Shown here piece by piece: positions 1,881 through 53,100 of a stretch of DNA of 64,000 nucleotides (position 1 is its first letter; every line of letters begins with the position of its first letter). Both the position numbers and the translations under genes were made by a program. Location of the stretch: contig JAUSDY010000176.1 of NCBI GenBank assembly GCA_030650395.1, forward strand, positions 62,001 to 126,000, in the 5' to 3' direction. A model generated the notes under the pieces. That model did no database searches and was not told the origin of the DNA. It saw only the letters and a program-made list of their open reading frames with translations. This DNA comes from Acidobacteriota bacterium. Lineage in GTDB: Bacteria; Acidobacteriota; Vicinamibacteria; Vicinamibacterales; UBA2999.

Positions 1881-2774
1881 TTACCCTCTCACGTAGTTGT
1901 TGAAGTGGGCGATGGTCCGCTGCCACGCGAGCTTGGCGGCCGCCGCGTCGTAACGAGGCGTGGTGTCGTTGTTGAAGCCGTGCTGCGTGCCGGCGTAGAT
2001 GTAGCCTTCGTAGCGCACGTTGTTGGCCTTGAGCGCGGCTTCCCACGCCGGCCAGCCGGCGTTGATGCGCTCGTCGGTGCCCGCGTAGTTGACGAGCATG
2101 GCCGCCTTGATCTTCGCGGTGTCTTCCGCCGTCGGCTGGCCGCCGTAGAACGGCACGCCGGCGCTCAGGTCGGCGCCGAGCCGCGCCGCGAGCATGCTCA
2201 CCACGCCGCCGCCGTAGCAGAACCCGACCGCGCCGATCTTGCCGGTGCAGTCCGCGCGCGTCTTCAGGTAGTTCGCGGCCGCGACGAAGTCTTCGCGGGT
2301 CTTGGGCTGTTCGAGCTTGGGGAACAGCTCGCGCGCCTTTTCTTCGTCGCCGGGGTAGCCGCCAAGTGGCGTCAGCGCGTCAGGCGCGAGCGCCATGAAG
2401 TTGTCGAGCGCCAGCCGGCGCGCGATGTCTTCGATGTGCGGATTGAGGCCCCGGTTCTCGTGCACCACCACAATGCCCGGCAGCTTGCCGGTGGCGTTGG
2501 CGGGGCGGGTGAGGTACGCCTTGATCTTGCCGTAGCCGTTGGGCGAGGCGATCTCGACCCATTCGGTCTTGAGGCGCTTGTCGTCTTTCGGGACCTGCTG
2601 GGCCTCGGCGAACTTGGGGCTGAGCGAGTCGAGCAGCATGCCGGCGGTCACGCCGCCGATGGCGAACTTCGTCGCGCGATCGAGAAAGCCGCGGCGATCG
2701 ATGGCGCCGTGCACGTACTGGTCAAAAATGAGGAGCAGTTCCTGATCGAAATCCTGCGTGGTCTTGCGTTCCAT
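1881..2774 (-). CDS. Dienelactone hydrolase family protein with Tat-like leader
   Basis: A 297-residue alpha/beta hydrolase. The N-terminal 30 residues look like a cytoplasmic lead-in, followed by DRRGFLDRATKFAIGG, a Tat-type RR motif and hydrophobic segment. The catalytic nucleophile motif is GFCYGGG (Cys nucleophile as in carboxymethylenebutenolidase), and a late histidine is in GTQHGFNND. Family members hydrolyse lactones or esters; the substrate here is unknown. It is the first gene of a minus-strand run with the ferritin-like and MalY-like genes. Its upstream region (2775-2845) leads into an 18-bp repeat array, which lies between this gene and the divergent gene at 3286. Confidence 0.88.
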   Translation of the reverse strand: MERKTTQDFDQELLLIFDQYVHGAIDRRGFLDRATKFAIGGVTAGMLLDSLSPKFAEAQQVPKDDKRLKTEWVEIASPNGYGKIKAYLTRPANATGKLPGIVVVHENRGLNPHIEDIARRLALDNFMALAPDALTPLGGYPGDEEKARELFPKLEQPKTREDFVAAANYLKTRADCTGKIGAVGFCYGGGVVSMLAARLGADLSAGVPFYGGQPTAEDTAKIKAAMLVNYAGTDERINAGWPAWEAALKANNVRYEGYIYAGTQHGFNNDTTPRYDAAAAKLAWQRTIAHFNNYVRG

Positions 2775-2845
2775 GTGGGGCCTCCGGCGGCTGCAGAGTT
2801 CAGATTGACGAGTTTAGAGTGTCGCGAGCCGCCTGACAAGGATGG

Positions 2846-2944
2846 TGACGGGATCGCACATCTTGACGGGATCGCACTACTTGACGGGACCACAATCCTT
2901 GACGGGAACGCAATCCTTGACGGGATCCTGCTAAGCAAGATCCA
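2846..2944. repeat. Left 18-bp tandem array (TGACGGGA units)
   Basis: Five units start with TGACGGGA at 2846, 2864, 2882, 2900 and 2918, a period of exactly 18 bp. The last unit reads into TCCTGCTAAG. The same units occur in inverted orientation at 3811-3882, so the region 2936-3810 is bracketed by mirrored arrays. The innermost units, 2918-2935 and the reverse complement of 3811-3828, agree at 17 of 18 positions. Confidence 0.9.
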
Positions 2945-3285
2945 GGCAGGTAGTACCGCTGAACTCATCCTTTCTGCCGCCGATACGGTCGAATGTTGAT
3001 GATGAGCTTCGCTCAGGCGCTCGCGAAAGGGATGGCGTCCCCGAGGGTAACTAACGACGTGTTTAGGCGGCGGGGCCGGTTTCAGCGGGCGGCGTGACGG
3101 AGGGGCGAGGAGCATCGGCCAGCCTTTTAAAGGACGACAGAGGCACGTCGTTCGGCCGGGGGCGAGGGGTTTACCCCGGCCAACGTTGGCCTCATCTGTC
3201 AGAATATGGGTATGCTGAATTTTCAAGCTGGTCTTGCCAGACGCCCGGCAAAGACAGAGCGATCCCTACCGAACGGAGCACCAGA
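2945..3285. other. Non-coding stretch upstream of the small secreted gene
   Basis: No convincing gene is seen in this 341-bp stretch. Short open frames exist on both strands but lack ribosome binding sites and family resemblance. The region becomes less GC-rich toward 3200, where the leader of the next gene begins. It should hold the promoter of the gene at 3286 and possibly of the divergent hydrolase at 2774. Confidence 0.5.
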
Positions 3286-3738
3286 ATGAGACTCGGCGCT
3301 GCTGCAGTTGTGTTCGTCGTGCTCGGCGCGGTAGCAAGCGCTGACACGATCACCCGAGAAGACTTCAGATGCAACTATTCACGGAAGTTCGAGTGCTCCT
3401 CGTTGTTGGAATGTCAGACCAGCCCAATTGGCTCGTCGTATTTATTGGTTCCTCATGTTGACGACCTGTATGGAGACACCATTGGTGCAGGCATCGTTTC
3501 GAAATTGCCTTCGATTCGGCGTTGCGATGAAAAGGGATGCTCTGCGGTGGAAGTAAGCGCCACCATGAATGGAGCCTTCATCAACGTGACGAAACCAGAC
3601 GGTACCTACTTTCTGAAAATTTCAACTGTGGACCTCGGCAAGGGTACTGAAATTGGAGACTTCGTCGAGGTCACATTGTCGGTTCTTGGGCACAATCACA
3701 TACTTCGGATCGTGTCGAGCGATTGTGAAATAGCTTGA
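3286..3738 (+). CDS. Small secreted protein of unknown family
   Basis: A 150-residue protein starting MRLGAAAVVFVVLGAVASA, a clear Sec signal peptide with probable cleavage after the ASA segment. I chose the ATG at 3286 because the signal peptide starts there; the frame stays open upstream but without coding character. The mature part is about 130 residues with several cysteines (RCNYS, FECSSL, ECQTS, RRCDEKGC, SSDCEI), suggesting disulfide bonds in the periplasm or outside the cell, and looks beta-rich. I do not recognise the family. Base composition is visibly less GC-rich than the neighbours, and mirrored 18-bp arrays flank it, which suggests acquired DNA. It converges with the beta-propeller gene. 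Confidence 0.65.
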   Translation: MRLGAAAVVFVVLGAVASADTITREDFRCNYSRKFECSSLLECQTSPIGSSYLLVPHVDDLYGDTIGAGIVSKLPSIRRCDEKGCSAVEVSATMNGAFINVTKPDGTYFLKISTVDLGKGTEIGDFVEVTLSVLGHNHILRIVSSDCEIA

Positions 3739-3810
3739 GCGCCGAGGATGTCGCCCGCGCTGTACAGGTGGTGGCGGCCCGAGGGGAAGGTGATACTCGG
3801 CGCGATCTCT

Positions 3811-3882
3811 CTTAGCAAGATCCCGTCAAGAATTGTCGTCCCGTCAAGAAGTGTTATCCCGTCAGGTGTTGCCGTCCCGGCA
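3811..3882. repeat. Right 18-bp tandem array, inverted copy
   Basis: Four 18-bp units in inverted orientation (reading TCCCGTCA on the plus strand) end at 3828, 3846, 3864 and 3882; the outermost is diverged. It mirrors the array at 2846-2944. Its outer edge lies 5 bp from the stop codon of the beta-propeller gene, so it probably forms the 3' untranslated region of that gene and of the convergent gene ending at 3738. Confidence 0.9.
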
Positions 3883-3886
3883 AGGA

Positions 3887-5122
3887 TCAGTTAAGCGTCC
3901 AGAGGGTTATGGAGTTGAGATCCTTGACGAACACGCGCTGGCCCGACAGCACGGGCTGGGCCCACGTCGCGCTGTTGGCGACGTTGTAGCGGCGCAGGAT
4001 CTCGAACTGTTTCGGGTTGCCGCGCGCCACGATCAGCTGCGCGTCGGCTTGCAGCGCCAACCACACGTCGCCGGCGCGCACCACCGCGGCGTTCTCGGCC
4101 TGGCGCCCCTCGGATAACCACAGCGTCTGGCCGGTGTTCGCGTCGACGCCGAAGAACTGGCCGCTGTTGCGCGCCGAAAATCCGAACAGCGTGGTGCCGA
4201 CCACCACGCCGGTGCTCATGTCCATCGTGACGTCGTTGTTTTCCCACACGTTCTCGGACACCCATTGATCGCCGCGCTTCATCACGCGAAACGCCGTGAC
4301 CGGCAGGCCGAGGCCGGAAATGATCACCGTCTGGCCATGAAGAATCGGAGTGGCGGCGTTGCGTGTGGCGCGAACCGAATACGGCCGCTTCCACAGCAGC
4401 TCACCGCCGGCGGCCGAGACACCGACGAGATTGTCCTGCGTGACCGTGACCACCTGCCTGGTGCCGCCGAGCTCGGCGACCACCGGCGATCCGTAGGCCG
4501 GGCCGTCGCCGTTCCAGCTCCACTTCACGTCGCCAGTGCGGGCGTCGAATGCGGTCAGCGCGCCGTTACTATGCCCGCCCACGTGCACGATCACCAGGCC
4601 GCGATCGACCAGCGGCGACATTGCCGTGTGATAGAGCGGCTCGACCAGCGGCGAGGGCTTCTGCCACAGCAGCTTGCCGCTTGCGGCATCAAACGCCGTC
4701 ACCATACCGCTCATGCCGAGCGTGTAGAGCCGGCCGTCCGCAAAGGTCGGCGTCGACTTCGGCCCGGTGCCGTGCGTTCGCGTGGCCGCCGGGTTGGGCT
4801 TGTAGGCCGCGACGTACTTCGTTTCCCAGATCGTCTTGCCGGTCGCGGCGTCGAGCGCGCGCATGACCTCGCTGTCGTCCTGTCGCGAGAATGCGAAGAC
4901 CCGATCGCCGACGATGATGGGAGCCGAGTAGCCGAGGCCGACCTCGACCTTCCAGCGCTCGGTGAGCCGCTCGGGCCACGTGGCGGGTGGCGTGAACGAT
5001 GCCGCGCCGTCACGCTGTGCGCCGCGCCATTGCGGCCAGTCGGTATTGGGCCGCTGTGCCGCCGCCGGTGCGAGACCGCACACCACGAGCGTCACGACGA
5101 GAGCAACGGTGGGACGCGCCAT
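3887..5122 (-). CDS. PQQ-type beta-propeller repeat protein, secreted
   Basis: A 411-residue protein with a Sec signal peptide (MARPTVALVVTLVVCGLAPA, then an AxA-like site). The mature part begins with DWPQWRGAQRDG, typical of outer-membrane-assembly or PQQ-dehydrogenase-like propellers in Acidobacteriota, followed by about seven blades with repeated motifs such as ALDAATGKTIWETK, FDAASGKLLWQ and DANTGQTLWLS. The domain probably binds a protein partner or cofactor in the periplasm; catalytic residues of PQQ dehydrogenases are not obvious. The start at 5122 overlaps the stop of the peroxiredoxin gene by one base (TAATG), which points to translational coupling. Its stop codon adjoins the right 18-bp array. 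Confidence 0.85.
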   Translation of the reverse strand: MARPTVALVVTLVVCGLAPAAAQRPNTDWPQWRGAQRDGAASFTPPATWPERLTERWKVEVGLGYSAPIIVGDRVFAFSRQDDSEVMRALDAATGKTIWETKYVAAYKPNPAATRTHGTGPKSTPTFADGRLYTLGMSGMVTAFDAASGKLLWQKPSPLVEPLYHTAMSPLVDRGLVIVHVGGHSNGALTAFDARTGDVKWSWNGDGPAYGSPVVAELGGTRQVVTVTQDNLVGVSAAGGELLWKRPYSVRATRNAATPILHGQTVIISGLGLPVTAFRVMKRGDQWVSENVWENNDVTMDMSTGVVVGTTLFGFSARNSGQFFGVDANTGQTLWLSEGRQAENAAVVRAGDVWLALQADAQLIVARGNPKQFEILRRYNVANSATWAQPVLSGQRVFVKDLNSITLWTLN

Positions 5123-5787
5123 TACTTGGGCTGCGGCACGATGCGGAGGTACGGCTTCGGCGCCTTCCAGCCTTGCGGATATTTCTGCCTGGCCTCGTCT
5201 TCGCCCACGGCCGGCAGGATGATCACGTCCTCGCCGTTCTTCCAGTTCACCGGCGTGGCGACCTTGTGCTTCGCCGTGAGCTGCATCGAATCGATCACCC
5301 GCAGCACCTCGTCGAAGTTGCGGCCGGTGCTCATCGGGTACGACAGCACCAGCTTGATCTTCTTGTCGGGGCCGATCACGTAGACGTTTCTGACCGTCGC
5401 GTTGTCGGCGGCGGTGCGGCCTTCGCACGTTTCGCCGGCGGTCGCCGGCAGCATGCCGTACAACTTGGCGACCTGGAGGTCGGTGTCGCCGATCATCGGG
5501 TAGTTGGGCGCCGTGCCCTGCGTTTCGGCGATGTCTTTCGCCCACCTTTCATGCTTATCGACCGGATCGATGCTGAGCCCGATCACTTTCACGTGGCGCT
5601 TGTCGAAGTCGGGCTTGATCCGCGCCATGTAGCCGAGCTCGGTCGTGCACACCGGCGTGAAGTCCTTGGGATGGGAAAACATCACCCCCCAGGAATTACC
5701 GAGCCAGTCGTGGAATTTGATCGGGCCCTCCGTGGTTTGGGCCTGGAAGTCGGGGGCATCGCTGCCGATGGGCAAGGGGCCGCTCAT
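5122..5787 (-). CDS. 1-Cys peroxiredoxin (Prx6-type)
   Basis: A 221-residue cytoplasmic peroxiredoxin. It has the peroxidatic cysteine motif PVCTTE near residue 48, preceded by FSHPKDFTP, and the long C-terminal extension (MQLTAKHK, VNWKNGEDV, then PKPYLRIVP) that marks the Prx6 class. It reduces hydrogen peroxide and organic hydroperoxides using an external thiol. A second cysteine lies in GETCEGR but is not at the standard resolving position. It is the first gene of a two-gene unit with the beta-propeller gene. Upstream lies a repeat-rich region, so any promoter must sit in or beyond 5788-5960. Confidence 0.93.
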   Translation of the reverse strand: MSGPLPIGSDAPDFQAQTTEGPIKFHDWLGNSWGVMFSHPKDFTPVCTTELGYMARIKPDFDKRHVKVIGLSIDPVDKHERWAKDIAETQGTAPNYPMIGDTDLQVAKLYGMLPATAGETCEGRTAADNATVRNVYVIGPDKKIKLVLSYPMSTGRNFDEVLRVIDSMQLTAKHKVATPVNWKNGEDVIILPAVGEDEARQKYPQGWKAPKPYLRIVPQPK

Positions 5788-5798
5788 AATACGCTCCG

Positions 5799-5955
5799 AA
5801 TCTGTTGGTCTGTTGATCTGGTGAGGGATTGATCTGATCGGTTGAACTACTGACCTGGTGATCTTCCGCCGGCAAGCGCCGATCGGTCAACCGATCCTGA
5901 GGTCATTAGATCTCAGAATCGGTCACCCGATCAACAGCTCACCAGATCAACAGAT
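5799..5955. repeat. Mirrored array of GATCTGTTGATC-type units
   Basis: The left part has iterated words (TCTGTTGG, TCTGTTGA, TCTGGTGA, TGATCTGATCGGT) and the right part contains their reverse complements (CACCCGATCAACAG, CTCACCAGATCAACAG). The arrangement could fold into a long imperfect hairpin upstream of the peroxiredoxin gene and just after the 3' end of the gene at 5966. The same unit recurs at 38504-38538. Confidence 0.7.
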
Positions 5956-13848: not shown

Positions 13849-13975
13849 GTCTCAACGGTAGCGGAGAGACAGGCGGCCGAGGATCAGCCGATTGACTAGG
13901 AGCTCGCGGTACAAAAAAGGGACCGGAGGGCGGGATGCGATGTTCCCGGCCACTTCGGTCCTACCCCCAGAAATT

Positions 13976-14070
13976 GAAGGGTTCTGAAGGGTTCTGACAG
14001 GTTCTGAAAGGTTCGCCTCGGAACCTCTCTGAACCTGTCTGAACCTCTCTGAACCTGTCTGAACCTGTCT
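13976..14070. repeat. Mirrored 10-bp array (GAACCTGTCT units)
   Basis: The left arm has four 10-bp units of GAAGGGTTCT type from 13976. After GCCTC, the right arm has five units of GAACCTGTCT or GAACCTCTCT, nearly the reverse complement of the left. The right end runs into the stop codon of the BON lipoprotein gene at 14069-14071. A long imperfect hairpin is expected in that transcript. A related array follows the tRNA at 46327. Confidence 0.85.
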
Positions 14071-14847: not shown

Positions 14848-20528
<5,681 letters not shown>

Positions 20529-29912: not shown

Positions 29913-31425
29913 GCCAACGCCCCAACGACAGAAAGGGATCGGTGCGTACGGTGCGTACGGTGCCTGGGGTGCCTAGGGGGTTGGTGCCACGGGTGCCAGC
30001 GGTGCCAACGGTGCGCCGGTGCTCGGCGACGGCGGCCAGTGCGGCTTCCGGTAGTTCGGTGCTGATCGTGGCCGCGATGGCCGGGCCTTCGCGATCGAGG
30101 AACCCGGTGTCGATCGTCGCGTCGATGAACTGCGGATGCTCGAGGATCCGCAGCAGGAACGGAATGTTGGTATGGATGCCGAGGATGGCGTAGTCGCGAA
30201 GCGCCGCCAGCGCGCGGTGGCGCGCGGCGTCGCGGGTCTCGGCCCACACGATCACCTTGGCGAGCATCGGGTCGTAGTGCACGGAGACGTCACCGTCCGC
30301 CGCGACGCCGCTGTCGACGCGCACGCCGGGACCCTGCGGCTCGCGGTAGAGCAGGATGGGCCCCGCCTGCGGGATGAAGCCTTGCGCGGGATCCTCCGCA
30401 TAGACCCGGCACTCGATGGCATGGCCACGTTGCGACAGCGACGCCTGCGTAAAGGGCAACGGCTCGCCAGACGCGACCAGCAACTGCGTGCGGACCAGAT
30501 CGATTCCCGTCACGCATTCGGTGACCGGGTGCTCCACCTGCAAGCGCGTGTTCATCTCCAGAAAATAAAAGCGCGCCTGGTCGCCCGAACCGTCGAGCAG
30601 GAACTCGACGGTGCCGGCGTTGCGGTAATTGATCGCGCGCGCCGCGGCAATGGCCGCCGCGCCCATCCGTTCGCGAACGCCGTCCGACAGGGCCACGCAC
30701 GGGCTCTCTTCGATCGTTTTCTGATGGCGGCGCTGAACCGAACACTCGCGCTCGAACAAGTGGACGATGTTGCCGTGGGCGTCGGCGACAATCTGGATCT
30801 CGACGTGACGCGGCTTCTCGATCAACCGCTCGACGTAAAGCGTGCCGTCGCCCACAGCGGCGATGGCTTCACGCCGTGCGGCGGCGGCAGCTTCGGCAAT
30901 CTCCTTTGCCGTCCAGACTTTCTTCATCCCGATACCTCCGCCGCCTGCGGATGGTTTGATCAGGACGGGGAAGCCGAGGCTTTCAGCCGCGCGCGCGAGC
31001 GCCGCGTCAGACTGGTCGGCGGGCGTTTCGCCCGGCACGACGGGCACGCCGGCATCAATCATCAGGCGCCGGGCGCCAATCTTCGATCCCATTTGTTCGA
31101 GTGATGCCGCGGTGGGGCCGACGAAGATCAGACCAGCCTCTTCGCACGCCTTTGCAAAGTGCGCTCGTTCGGAGAGGAAGCCGTAGCCGGGATGAATCGC
31201 ATCGGCGCCCGACTGGCGCGCCGCGTCGATTACCTTCTGCGCGTCGAGGTAGCTCTCCCGTGCCGGCGGAGGCCCGATGCGAATCGCTGAATCGGCCTCG
31301 CGCGCATGCGGCGCGGCTCGGTCGGCATCGGAATAGATGGCAACCGTCTCGATGCCCAGCTCGCGGCAGGCTCGAATGATGCGGACCGCGATCTCCCCCC
31401 GGTTCGCGATCAACAGCCGTTTCAT
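29905..31425 (-). CDS. liuD: Biotin carboxylase subunit of methylcrotonyl-CoA carboxylase, with repeat-derived C-terminus
   Basis: A 506-residue ATP-grasp enzyme. The ATG at 31425 gives MKRLLIANRGEIAVRI. Conserved segments include GYGFLSER, KPSAGGGGIGMKKV, EMNTRLQVEHPVTE and EVHYD-region equivalents (VSVHYDPMLAKVIVW). It carboxylates the biotin of the carrier encoded next, using ATP and bicarbonate. The normal domain ends near residue 450; the tail beyond it (VGTAGTRGTNPLGTPGT, then VRTVRTDP) is encoded by a 9-bp tandem array. This matches a disrupted single-chain LiuD. The gene starts 5 bp after liuC. Other acyl-CoA carboxylases share this fold; the leucine role is inferred from the cluster. 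Confidence 0.92.
   Translation of the reverse strand: MKRLLIANRGEIAVRIIRACRELGIETVAIYSDADRAAPHAREADSAIRIGPPPARESYLDAQKVIDAARQSGADAIHPGYGFLSERAHFAKACEEAGLIFVGPTAASLEQMGSKIGARRLMIDAGVPVVPGETPADQSDAALARAAESLGFPVLIKPSAGGGGIGMKKVWTAKEIAEAAAAARREAIAAVGDGTLYVERLIEKPRHVEIQIVADAHGNIVHLFERECSVQRRHQKTIEESPCVALSDGVRERMGAAAIAAARAINYRNAGTVEFLLDGSGDQARFYFLEMNTRLQVEHPVTECVTGIDLVRTQLLVASGEPLPFTQASLSQRGHAIECRVYAEDPAQGFIPQAGPILLYREPQGPGVRVDSGVAADGDVSVHYDPMLAKVIVWAETRDAARHRALAALRDYAILGIHTNIPFLLRILEHPQFIDATIDTGFLDREGPAIAATISTELPEAALAAVAEHRRTVGTAGTRGTNPLGTPGTVRTVRTDPFLSLGRWRG
29941..30024. repeat. 9-bp GGTGC array inside the biotin carboxylase gene
   Basis: About nine units of GGTGCNNNN (GGTGCGTAC twice, GGTGCCTGG, GGTGCCTAG, then GGTGCCAC, GGTGCCAGC, GGTGCCAAC and GGTGCGCC) run through the coding 3' end of the gene. 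On the coding strand they give repeated Gly/Arg-Thr-Val/Ala residues. The same unit makes up the intergenic array at 44248-44326. Confidence 0.85.
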
Positions 31426-44247: not shown

Positions 44248-44326
44248 GTGCGTACAGTGCGTACAGTGCGAAGGGTGCGTACAGTGCACGGGTGCCAAGG
44301 GTGCCAAGGGTGCCAAGGGTGCAAAG
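44248..44326. repeat. 9-bp GGTGC tandem array, intergenic
   Basis: About nine units: GGTGCGTAC, AGTGCGTAC, AGTGCGAAG, GGTGCGTAC, AGTGCACG, then GGTGCCAAG three times and GGTGCAAAG. It starts directly after the stop of the DUF255 gene and ends just before the ribosome binding site of the next gene. The same unit is found inside the biotin carboxylase gene at 29941-30024. Confidence 0.9.
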
Positions 44327-44335
44327 GAAAGAAAC

Positions 44336-47183: not shown

Positions 47184-48023
47184 ATGAAATGGGAAGGTGG
47201 TCGTCGCAGTACCAACATTGAGGATCGCCGGGGGCTGGGCGCCGGCACGATCGGCGGGGGCGGCATCGGCATGCTCCTCATCGTGCTCGCCATATCGTGC
47301 CTGACCGGCACCAATCCGATGGAGTTGCTCCAGGTGGCCGAACAGGTCAACCCGGGGCAGGCCCAGTCGGTGCCGACCGGCGCGCCGAGCGGCGATCCCG
47401 CGGCCGAGTTTGTGGCGGTCGTGCTGGCTGATACCGAAGAGGCCTGGGGCAAGGTCTTCCAGGCGGGCGGCCAGACCTACCGGGCTCCCGTGCTGGTGTT
47501 GTTCGAAAACGGGGTGCAGTCGGCATGCGGCTCGGCGTCGTCTGCCAGCGGCCCGTTCTACTGCCCGTCGGATCAGAAGGTCTACCTCGATCTGACGTTC
47601 TTCCGCGAGCTCGATCAGCGCTTCGGCGCACCGGGTGACTTCGCGCAGGCGTATGTCGTGGCCCACGAAATCGGTCACCACGTCCAGCACCTGCTCGGAC
47701 TCGATCGGCAGGCGGCACAGGCGCGGCAGCAGGGCAGCCGCGCCGATGCCAATCAACTGTCGGTCCAGCTCGAGTTGCAGGCCGACTGCTTTGCCGGCGT
47801 GTGGGGACATCATGCTCAGAGCAAGCAGCTGCTCCACGATGGCGACATCGACGAAGGCATCGCGGCCGCGGCGGCGATTGGCGACGACCGCCTGACCAAG
47901 GGTCGCGTCTCGCCCGACAGCTTCACGCACGGCACCTCGGCGCAACGCTCCCGGTGGCTGCGCCAGGGCCTGTCGAGCGGCAGCATCAACAGCTGCGACA
48001 CATTCCGCGCATCGACGCTCTAA
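47184..48023 (+). CDS. ypfJ: YpfJ-family neutral zinc metallopeptidase
   Basis: A 279-residue protein. The start MKWEGGRRSTNIEDRRG matches the family's conserved N-terminus; a membrane helix follows (IGMLLIVLAISCL). The catalytic HEIGHHVQHLLG motif is near residue 162, and the later ELQADCFAGVWGHHA supplies the third ligand and is family-specific. The C-terminus has SHGTSAQR-like FTHGTSAQRSRWL. It is probably an inner-membrane-anchored peptidase of unknown substrate. Its stop codon lies within a 7-bp tandem array (48020-48085). Confidence 0.95.
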   Translation: MKWEGGRRSTNIEDRRGLGAGTIGGGGIGMLLIVLAISCLTGTNPMELLQVAEQVNPGQAQSVPTGAPSGDPAAEFVAVVLADTEEAWGKVFQAGGQTYRAPVLVLFENGVQSACGSASSASGPFYCPSDQKVYLDLTFFRELDQRFGAPGDFAQAYVVAHEIGHHVQHLLGLDRQAAQARQQGSRADANQLSVQLELQADCFAGVWGHHAQSKQLLHDGDIDEGIAAAAAIGDDRLTKGRVSPDSFTHGTSAQRSRWLRQGLSSGSINSCDTFRASTL

Positions 48024-48085
48024 ACTCTTGACTCTTAACTCTTAACTCTTAACTCTTAACTCTTAACTCTTAACTCTTAACTCCC
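48020..48085. repeat. 7-bp AACTCTT tandem array
   Basis: Nine consecutive units of ACTCTTA or ACTCTTG fill the gap between the convergent ypfJ and pepO genes. It overlaps the ypfJ stop codon (48021-48023). It is a pure tandem array without a mirrored arm and is likely to vary in copy number by slippage. Confidence 0.95.
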
Positions 48086-52130: not shown

Positions 52131-53029
52131 CCACCACCGACTACATCGACCTGAACTTCCGCGGCAGCCCGCGCGTGATTGCCACCGCGGTCGTCGCCGC
52201 CACCGACGGCATCGTCCTGATCGATCCGGGTCCGACGTCGTGCCTGGCCACGCTCGAAGCCGGCCTTCGCGATCGCGGGTACACGCTGCGCGACGTGCGG
52301 TCGCTGCTGTTGACGCACATCCACCTCGATCACGCGGGCGCGGCGGGCACCATTGTCGAGCGGGTGCCCGGGGTCCGGGTCCACGTGCACGAGCGCGGCG
52401 CGCCGCACATGATCGCTCCGGAGAAGTTACTGGCGAGCGCGACGCGCTTGCACGGCGATCAGATGGAGACATTGTGGGGCGCGTTCCTTCCGGTGCCCGC
52501 TGACCGCATCGTCGTGCTGCAGGGTGGCGAGCGCATCGACGTCGCCTCGCATAGCTTCCGCGTCGCGTATACGCCGGGACACGCCAAGCACCATGTCAGT
52601 TATCTCGACGAGCAATCCGGGATGGCCTATGTCGGCGACACCGGCGGCGTGCGCGTCAGCGGCGACTACCTGATTGCGCCAACGCCGCCGCCGGACATTG
52701 ACGTGGAAACCTGGCGCGCCAGCCTCGATGCGATCGATGCGTGGCAACCGGTCTCGCTGTTCCTGACGCACTTTGGACCGGTCACGCCGGCCCGCGCGCA
52801 CCTGGCGCGGTTCCGCCAGACCCTCACGTCGGCGGCCGACGCGGTGAAGGCGTCGATGGCCGCGGGCGGCACGGACGAAGAGAAGGTGCGGCGGTTTGTC
52901 GAGCAGATGCGGCGCGATGTTCGGCAGGCCTTGCCCGAACACGAGGCAAAGGCTGCCGAACTGGCGGCGCCGTTCGAGCAGCTATGGCAAGGGCTGGCCA
53001 GGTATTGGCAGAAGAGAAATAACCAATAA
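52127..53029 (+). CDS. MBL-fold metallohydrolase
   Basis: A 300-residue protein with GTG at 52127 overlapping the dioxygenase stop. LLLTHIHLDHAGAAGT gives the HxHxDH motif near residues 64-69, and VAYTPGHAKHHVSY, AYVGDTGGVRV and LFLTHFGPV supply the other metal ligands of a two-metal site. The C-terminal 80 residues are helical and charged. Possible substrates are glutathione adducts, lactones or persulfides. Its last codons (EKRNNQ region) and stop lie in the AATAACCAA repeat array that separates it from the PilZ gene. Confidence 0.92.
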   Translation: MTTTDYIDLNFRGSPRVIATAVVAATDGIVLIDPGPTSCLATLEAGLRDRGYTLRDVRSLLLTHIHLDHAGAAGTIVERVPGVRVHVHERGAPHMIAPEKLLASATRLHGDQMETLWGAFLPVPADRIVVLQGGERIDVASHSFRVAYTPGHAKHHVSYLDEQSGMAYVGDTGGVRVSGDYLIAPTPPPDIDVETWRASLDAIDAWQPVSLFLTHFGPVTPARAHLARFRQTLTSAADAVKASMAAGGTDEEKVRRFVEQMRRDVRQALPEHEAKAAELAAPFEQLWQGLARYWQKRNNQ

Positions 53030-53100
53030 CCAAGTACGAATAACCAAAGAGTGCTTTGGTTATTGGTACTTTGGTTATTGGTACTTGGTTATTTGTTATT
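53017..53100. repeat. Mirrored AATAACCAA array
   Basis: The left arm AATAACCAATAACCAAGTACGAATAACCAAAG, after a short loop, is mirrored by CTTTGGTTATTGGTACTTTGGTTATTGGTACTTGGTTATT. It begins within the MBL gene (stop 53027-53029) and ends 4 bp before the convergent PilZ stop. The long hairpin could end both transcripts. It is AT-rich against the genome background. Confidence 0.85.

Follow-up and report, generated by a model that had tools for sequence, protein, structure and literature searches.

A secreted-protein gene between inverted 18-bp tandem arrays in an Acidobacteriota genome, a candidate member of a hairpin family linked to PF05635 genes

Tandem arrays that face each other across a single gene raise the question of whether arrays and gene belong to one element or stand together by accident. 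We examined such a locus in a 64,000-nucleotide stretch of an Acidobacteriota genome (hereafter the window; contig JAUSDY010000176.1, positions 62,001 to 126,000), where a first-pass annotation had described a small secreted-protein gene bracketed by mirrored 18-bp arrays and likened it to a cassette with terminal inverted repeats built from iterons. The genome of the window is designated G000, and eight relatives in its genus G001 to G008.

The window element and its junction

The locus comprises the following features, given in window coordinates:

1881..2774, minus strand: left neighbour, a hydrolase gene (dienelactone-hydrolase-like by eye)
2844..2933, plus strand: left array, five 18-bp units, the outermost being TGACGGGA
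2923..2943, strand not applicable: inner palindrome GGATCCTGCTAAGCAAGATCC on the loop side of the left arm
3286..3738, plus strand: cargo gene, encoding a Cys-containing secreted protein of 150 aa (signal peptide by eye)
3804..3822, strand not applicable: inner palindrome GATCTCTCTTAGCAAGATC on the loop side of the right arm
3813..3884, minus strand: right array, four inverted 18-bp units (tandem-repeat and weight-matrix detection)
3887..5401, minus strand: right neighbour, a PQQ-like beta-propeller gene (identified by eye, with 5401 taken as its start)

The arrays of the window exceed chance. A weight matrix from 171 units of G000, with the consensus CTTG[A/T]CGGGANSGCACTT, gave 5 + 4 matches in the window at a score of at least 12 vs 0 + 0 in the reversed window, and TRF reported a period of 18 with score 113 for the left array (2846-2927) and a score of 72 for the right (3821-3884). 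The earlier description of five units facing four inverted ones was thus upheld, as was its observation that the innermost 18-mers of the two arms agree at 17 of 18 positions and both lead into CTAAG, a word that both inner palindromes carry when read inward. The left palindrome (2923-2943) has a similar apex in another copy, the mini-hairpin L040:3447-3571. The two 96-nt arms are 75% complementary, and in the predicted RNA fold of the window they base-pair around the cargo gene.

The loop between the arms (~879 bp) holds one gene, the Cys-containing secreted-protein ORF already noted there, and no transposase gene, again as annotated; its lower GC was borne out by comparison with another 35 array stretches from G000 and G004 (0.56 vs 0.63-0.68). 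A Pfam search of the cargo protein returned no match, and no homologue was found at E 0.01 in the eight genus relatives. Among 162 genomes of the order there were three others (E 3e-11, 1e-5 and 0.002), the two better of which conserve C29, C37, C43, C80 and C85. Since homologues are missing from the eight genus relatives and only distant ones occur in the order, the cargo gene looks foreign to the genus. Homologues flanked by the same arrays, for which the first-pass annotation had proposed a search, did not turn up: no flanking inverted repeats were found at the homologues L070 and L071, which belong to another family, or at the weak match L072, and we rejected the cargo as a self-mobile gene on this ground.

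The element lies between the hydrolase and PQQ genes, not within an rRNA gene, and the stop codon of the PQQ gene is 2 bp outside the right array. The same junction is empty in two relatives, as the annotation had suggested might be seen in sister genomes: 11 bp in G008 and 12 bp in G007 separate the start codon of the hydrolase gene from the stop codon of the PQQ gene, with no insert, so that ~1.05 kb was gained in the window (or lost elsewhere). The gene order is kept in G001, with a different gene in between; here a hairpin array of another unit (CACGAAG type, by eye) directly follows the PQQ stop, and no 18-bp array was detected at the junction.

The dispersed 18-bp family and one PF05635 clade

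The 18-bp arrays of the window belong to a dispersed, genome-wide family. We scanned 40 genomes, including that of the window, with a two-unit pattern allowing at most 3 mismatches, which matched 80 + 87 times (167) in G000 vs 5 + 4 (9) in the reversed control. G004 (72 + 58) and G008 (79 + 72) are similarly rich and G001 (13 + 16) intermediate; the remaining five genus genomes have 0-7 matches each, and none of the 31 genomes from other genera exceeds 3. Ten G008 contigs (C6, C10, C26, C43, C54, C55, C56, C59, C60 and C62) end or start inside or within ~40 bp of 18-bp arrays, which probably reflects assembly breaks at near-identical copies.

Many members of the family are facing pairs with short loops. 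In the stretches fetched from G000, G004 and G008, arrays separated by less than 150 bp form inward-facing pairs in 28 of 29 cases, as do neighbouring arrays 150-3000 bp apart in 13 of 26 (G000 7/12, G004 1/7, G008 5/7), and the loop is shorter than 150 bp in 12 of 19 facing pairs in G000, 12 of 13 in G004 and 3 of 8 in G008. Solitary arrays, with no partner within the fetched stretch, are also frequent. The first-pass annotation had reasoned that arrays devoid of cargo would speak for an ordinary intergenic repeat, and in part this is what we found, in the short-loop pairs of G000 and the solitary arrays; some facing pairs enclose genes. One gene-less copy, the mini-hairpin L040:1690-1895, has a predicted RNA fold of -111.9 kcal/mol (z -11.2), matched by 0 of 200 shuffles. 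Co-evolution of the two arms within elements was clear in G000 only (likeness 0.706 vs 0.681 for shuffled arms, sd 0.008), weak in G008 (0.757 vs 0.743, sd 0.008) and absent in G004 (0.651 vs 0.649), and was discarded as a general property.

Gene-carrying loops recur, with a GC of 0.52-0.62 in G000. Their contents there include an a/b-hydrolase (L031), an OmpH protein (L034) and proteins without assigned family (L029, L045 and L030, the left array of L030 being weak), and the facing pairs L041 and L043 of G000 and L135 of G008 enclose proteins assigned by Pfam to PF05635. In G004, the pair at L083 surrounds a resident gene of normal GC whose G000 orthologue (L022) is arrayed on one side only. 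Three further observations concern individual copies: at L110:12144-13961, L097:4787-4858 and L131:9126-9955, in three species, an 18-bp array adjoins, apparently in frame, part of a gene (C-terminal and D-threonine-aldolase-like by eye); at L100:2515-3709 in G004 one array pair is nested inside another; and the inner loop of this nested copy holds, by eye, the apparent 3' end of a tRNA.

One PF05635 clade is found in the same arms as the window gene. When 148 PF05635 loci were tested for 18-bp arrays within 350 bp, only five had them (L143 and L150 in G000, L155 and L168 in G004, L161 in G008), and their proteins form a single clade, L143 and its four closest proteins (76, 72, 71 and 66%). 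The next-closest (61-62%, G007) are without 18-bp arrays, and one of these, L151, has arms of a different unit of ~18 bp (by eye). Both arms were detected in L143, L150 and L161, which span 543-728 bp; the second arm of L155 was recovered by alignment only (score 23), and L168 is arrayed on one side only. G001 has 29 pattern matches, yet 0 of its 13 PF05635 matches fall in the L143 clade.

Members of the family were gained or lost between species. Two mini-hairpins of G000 and G004 are missing in G008, one solitary array shared by G004 and G008 is missing in G000, and the L031 site has arms and gene in G000 and a single array in G008. The L143 site was scored in seven relatives, G007 being left out with its flanks on different contigs. 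G000 carries arms and a PF05635 gene here and G004 a bare 18-bp hairpin, while in G001, G002, G003, G005, G006 and G008 the flanks lie 67-205 bp apart without 18-bp arrays (other short arrays are present, by eye, in G001, G003, G005 and G008). The G000 element, both arms included, matches L155, which lies on another contig of G004, at 70% over 554 bp. At the L150 site, the second such element of G000, the right flank alone was found in all eight relatives, and there is no clean empty site.

These data bear on whether two ordinary intergenic arrays simply happen to flank a horizontally acquired gene. The many solitary arrays, the resident gene within the L083 pair and the lack of any excess of facing pairs at 150-3000 bp in G004 would all fit such a coincidence. 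We nevertheless consider it unlikely, given that nearly all close pairs face inward, that a CTAAG palindrome ends both window arms, that the foreign gene and both arms jointly fill a junction empty in two relatives, and that gene-in-loop and bare-hairpin states occur at one and the same site (L143).

The very stable fold, the location between stop and start codons and the different array families (by eye) at the same junction in different species invite another view, in which the hairpins are immobile terminators or RNA-stability structures grown locally by slippage or template switching, the cargo being incidental. Against this stand the link to a PF05635 clade and the occurrence of one unit at dozens of unrelated loci while it is nearly absent from other genera; since a single unit sequence at so many loci calls for copying, local growth is insufficient, and we regard this explanation as very improbable.

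PF05635 genes between inverted short arrays

The association of PF05635 genes with inverted repeats extends well beyond the 18-bp unit. The nine genus genomes contain 73 PF05635 matches, 68 of which were analysed (L145, L153, two weak G005 matches and one overlapping G003 match were excluded) and 67 scored, one being dropped at a contig edge; a locus was positive if an inverted repeat between its left and right 300-bp flanks scored at least 16. Inverted repeats flank 51 of the 67 loci (14 of 15 in G000) vs 0 of 108 control windows drawn from these loci, control windows here not being limited to genes. Roughly 1.5% of 3000 random positions, a second control, reach score 16, a value that is too high if anything because these were drawn from stretches chosen for 18-bp arrays. 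A protein-based scan of many phyla (the GTDB set) returned at least 585 PF05635 relatives, and among the best 80 of these, 52 loci lie between inverted repeats vs 8 of 787 control windows; reversing the letters left 1 positive of 80, and scoring direct repeats instead gave 14 of 80. The genus PF05635 profile matches the solved structures 2gsc and 2rld.

The arms at PF05635 loci are mostly short tandem arrays whose unit varies between loci. G exceeds C in the 5' arm at 45 of 51 genus loci (5 have fewer, with 1 tie) and at 49 of 52 positive loci among the best 80 of at least 585 in the GTDB set; 26 weak inverted repeats (score below 12) also lean towards G, 16 to 8, less strongly. Arms resemble each other when their proteins do: in the genus, the mean cosine is 0.53 above a protein identity of 0.7, 0.30 at 0.6-0.7 and 0.04 below 0.3, and Mantel tests gave rho 0.284 (p 0.002) for the genus and rho 0.443 (p 0.004) for G000. 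In the GTDB set, again for the best 80 of at least 585, the cosine is 0.31 for 16 pairs at 0.6-0.7 and less than 0.05 for 1309 pairs below 0.6, and the Mantel rho is 0.069 (p 0.054), so that across phyla the link is limited to close proteins. One close pair with similar arms in this best-80 set spans records of Planctomycetota (Sedimentisphaerales) and Nitrospirae (L236, L284).

Arm units of this wider group are dispersed in other genomes as well. The GGGAWTC unit recurs across 7 of the 8 Xanthomonadaceae genomes, at 3 to 375 matches (control 0), with 3 matches in the L280 genome and zero in that of L285, and the TCAGTTN unit has 63 + 55 matches in the L262 genome (control 0). The L257 genome has 118 TCAGTT matches (control 1), yet its PF05635 arms use another unit, so that no cognate gene is apparent for these repeats. 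PF05635 relatives occur in 34 plasmid records, eight of which were opened for inverted-repeat scores: 26.5 in a pair of records (97% identical regions on plasmids from the same strain), 31.5, 27.5 and 15.0 in one record each, and 9-11 in the remaining three, of which two share protein and flanks. Cyanobacterial plasmids carry a heptamer-armed PF05635 gene between the genes for two ribonucleotide reductase subunits. On the Anabaena sp. 90 plasmid pANA02 (L302), a type I-D CRISPR locus has an AGGTGAC-armed PF05635 gene between its cas6 and cas4 genes.

Other repeats of the window resemble such arms. We tested 16 rows chosen from 35 tandem-repeat rows and the inverted-repeat listing of the window, and 8 of the 16 resemble arms of a PF05635 locus in the same genome more closely than 95% of random segments do; 7 of these score at least 0.52, which is the 99% level. 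Individual repeats in the window include facing 10-bp arrays of GGTTCTGAAA type at 13975-14070 (35-nt arms, 6-nt loop), with the unit seen at the G000 PF05635 locus L157; 9-bp GGTGC arrays at 29940-30022 and 44248-44327, like the arms of the G000 PF05635 loci L174 and L201; and facing TTGGTTA arrays at 53018-53100, with 32-nt arms 94% complementary and the unit of PF05635 locus L198. A two-copy repeat at 5923-5953 is similar to the ATCTGTTG arms found at the PF05635 loci L187 and L190, and a 10-bp TCTGAATGGT array at 46338-46389 matches the L157 arms more weakly (0.33). Nine CTCTTAA units at 48018-48083 are unmatched among G000 arms and score 0.52 to the G001 locus L183, and a 276-bp tandem repeat of 8.8 copies at 15279-17712 is probably coding.

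Known systems and the proposed reading

The closest known parallel is the intervening sequence (IVS) of 23S rRNA genes that encodes an S23 protein, for example in Coxiella burnetii (428 nt), whose complementary ends pair into a long stem that closes off a one-ORF loop; the parts of the source considered here propose horizontal acquisition, report that RNase III cuts the stem, and describe PF05635/S23 as without known function (PMC4990558). Like an IVS, the window arms are predicted to form a stem around the insert, and relatives of the element with the same arms (L041, L043, L135) encode PF05635. Unlike an IVS, the window element lies outside rRNA, its arms are tandem arrays, many gene-less copies are dispersed, and its cargo has no Pfam match and is not S23/PF05635. 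The IVS of 428 nt cited in that source (PMC4990558) compares with 543-728 bp for the three two-armed PF05635 members.

A second parallel comes from REP/REPIN sequences, dispersed gene-less inverted pairs of which a few copies flank a cognate RAYT gene, with clade and repeat matched; RAYT is an HUH (Y1) transposase. The 18-bp family likewise combines dispersed inverted pairs with a cognate gene flanked by them, but this gene encodes a four-helix-bundle PF05635 protein instead of an HUH transposase, and the arms are arrays of ~7-18 bp units. In the DGR literature, the accessory protein Avd is said, in the part of the source consulted, to resemble PF05635, with a structure suggesting homology (PMC10053308).

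Short tandem repeats have been described in other bacteria. The heptamer SSRs of Xanthomonas and Nostoc consist of short, G-rich units in tandem and often stand as convergent pairs (Xcc has 70, Xac 75); the terms S23 and four helix are absent from that paper, and its consulted portions draw no link to PF05635 or mobility (PMC4692102). The window unit differs from these SSRs/STRRs in being 18 bp instead of 7 bp. The TAACTGA repeats of Beggiatoaceae are dispersed intergenic tandem 7-mers, nearly all direct with one inverted case, S23 and four helix again being unmentioned in the paper (PMC4679880); the 18-bp arrays are similarly dispersed, intergenic and tandem, but often stand in inverted facing pairs. 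Unlike integron gene cassettes in an array, the 18-bp copies are dispersed and flanked on both sides. Among the titles, abstract openings and passages covered by a search of the open-licence PMC literature, none ties PF05635 to short tandem or inverted arrays outside rRNA, and nothing on the 18-bp unit appeared in titles and abstracts on Acidobacteria repeats.

Mobile insertion cassettes and MITEs have inverted ends, optional cargo and no transposase inside, and multi-site binding ends occur in Tn7- or Mu-like transposons. The 18-bp elements share the inverted ends, optional cargo and lack of an internal transposase, and might accordingly be cassettes moved by a DDE transposase encoded at another locus, which would cut at the arrays as its multi-site binding ends. 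This alternative draws on the inverted ends with cargo between them, on copies missing at orthologous sites, and on element ends that tend to TG..CA, the outermost units often being TG(A)CGGGA where inner units are TGTCGGGA. No target duplication, however, fits generally at 19 paired elements and three orthologous empty sites (by eye), and TCATGA at one site is a palindrome and so proves nothing; nor did the loops read contain a parent transposase, apart from IS5-like fragments (by eye) in L045. The gene that recurs between 18-bp arms is PF05635 and not a transposase, and the arm unit of PF05635 elements varies from locus to locus. We therefore find it improbable that a DDE transposase moves these elements: the cassette reading of the window element offered by the first-pass annotation is supported, and a further step to terminal inverted repeats of a DDE transposon is not.

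We think it fairly probable that the window holds a gene-swapped, non-autonomous member of a genus-specific, IVS-like hairpin family, a reading against which it counts that the window copy has no PF05635 gene. Also weighing against it are the lack of a consistent target duplication, the frequent solitary arrays, the resident gene in the L083 pair, the armless homologues of the cargo, the arm likeness and inward facing that vary between genomes, the lack of clade members in G001 and the incomplete arms at L155 and L168. The L143-clade PF05635 gene would, on this reading, be the family's own, its protein recognising the 18-bp unit, most likely in RNA or single-stranded form. PF05635 proteins are not known to act as enzymes. 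Gene-less arms would be non-autonomous copies helped in trans, much as REPINs are by RAYT genes, and the window hairpin may have captured a foreign secreted-protein gene where relatives hold nothing or a PF05635 gene. In a transcript, the arms would pair around the cargo, and by analogy with the rRNA IVS, RNase III could cut the stem, which would make an insert between co-directional genes cheap.

A broader generalisation is also conceivable, which we put forward tentatively and without favouring it. Much of the intergenic short tandem-repeat DNA of bacteria (heptamer SSRs, STRRs and longer-unit arrays) may consist of non-autonomous hairpins of one class of mobile element with tandem-array arms, spread via PF05635 four-helix-bundle proteins, each clade co-diversifying with its own unit; rRNA IVSs would represent the small number of members inserted into rRNA, and the window would illustrate that such hairpins can capture other genes. 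If so, each PF05635 protein should recognise its own repeat, and gene capture would be possible without a transposase. This view offers a candidate origin for the short tandem repeats that are so common between genes in many bacteria, and gives PF05635/S23 proteins a genomic context.
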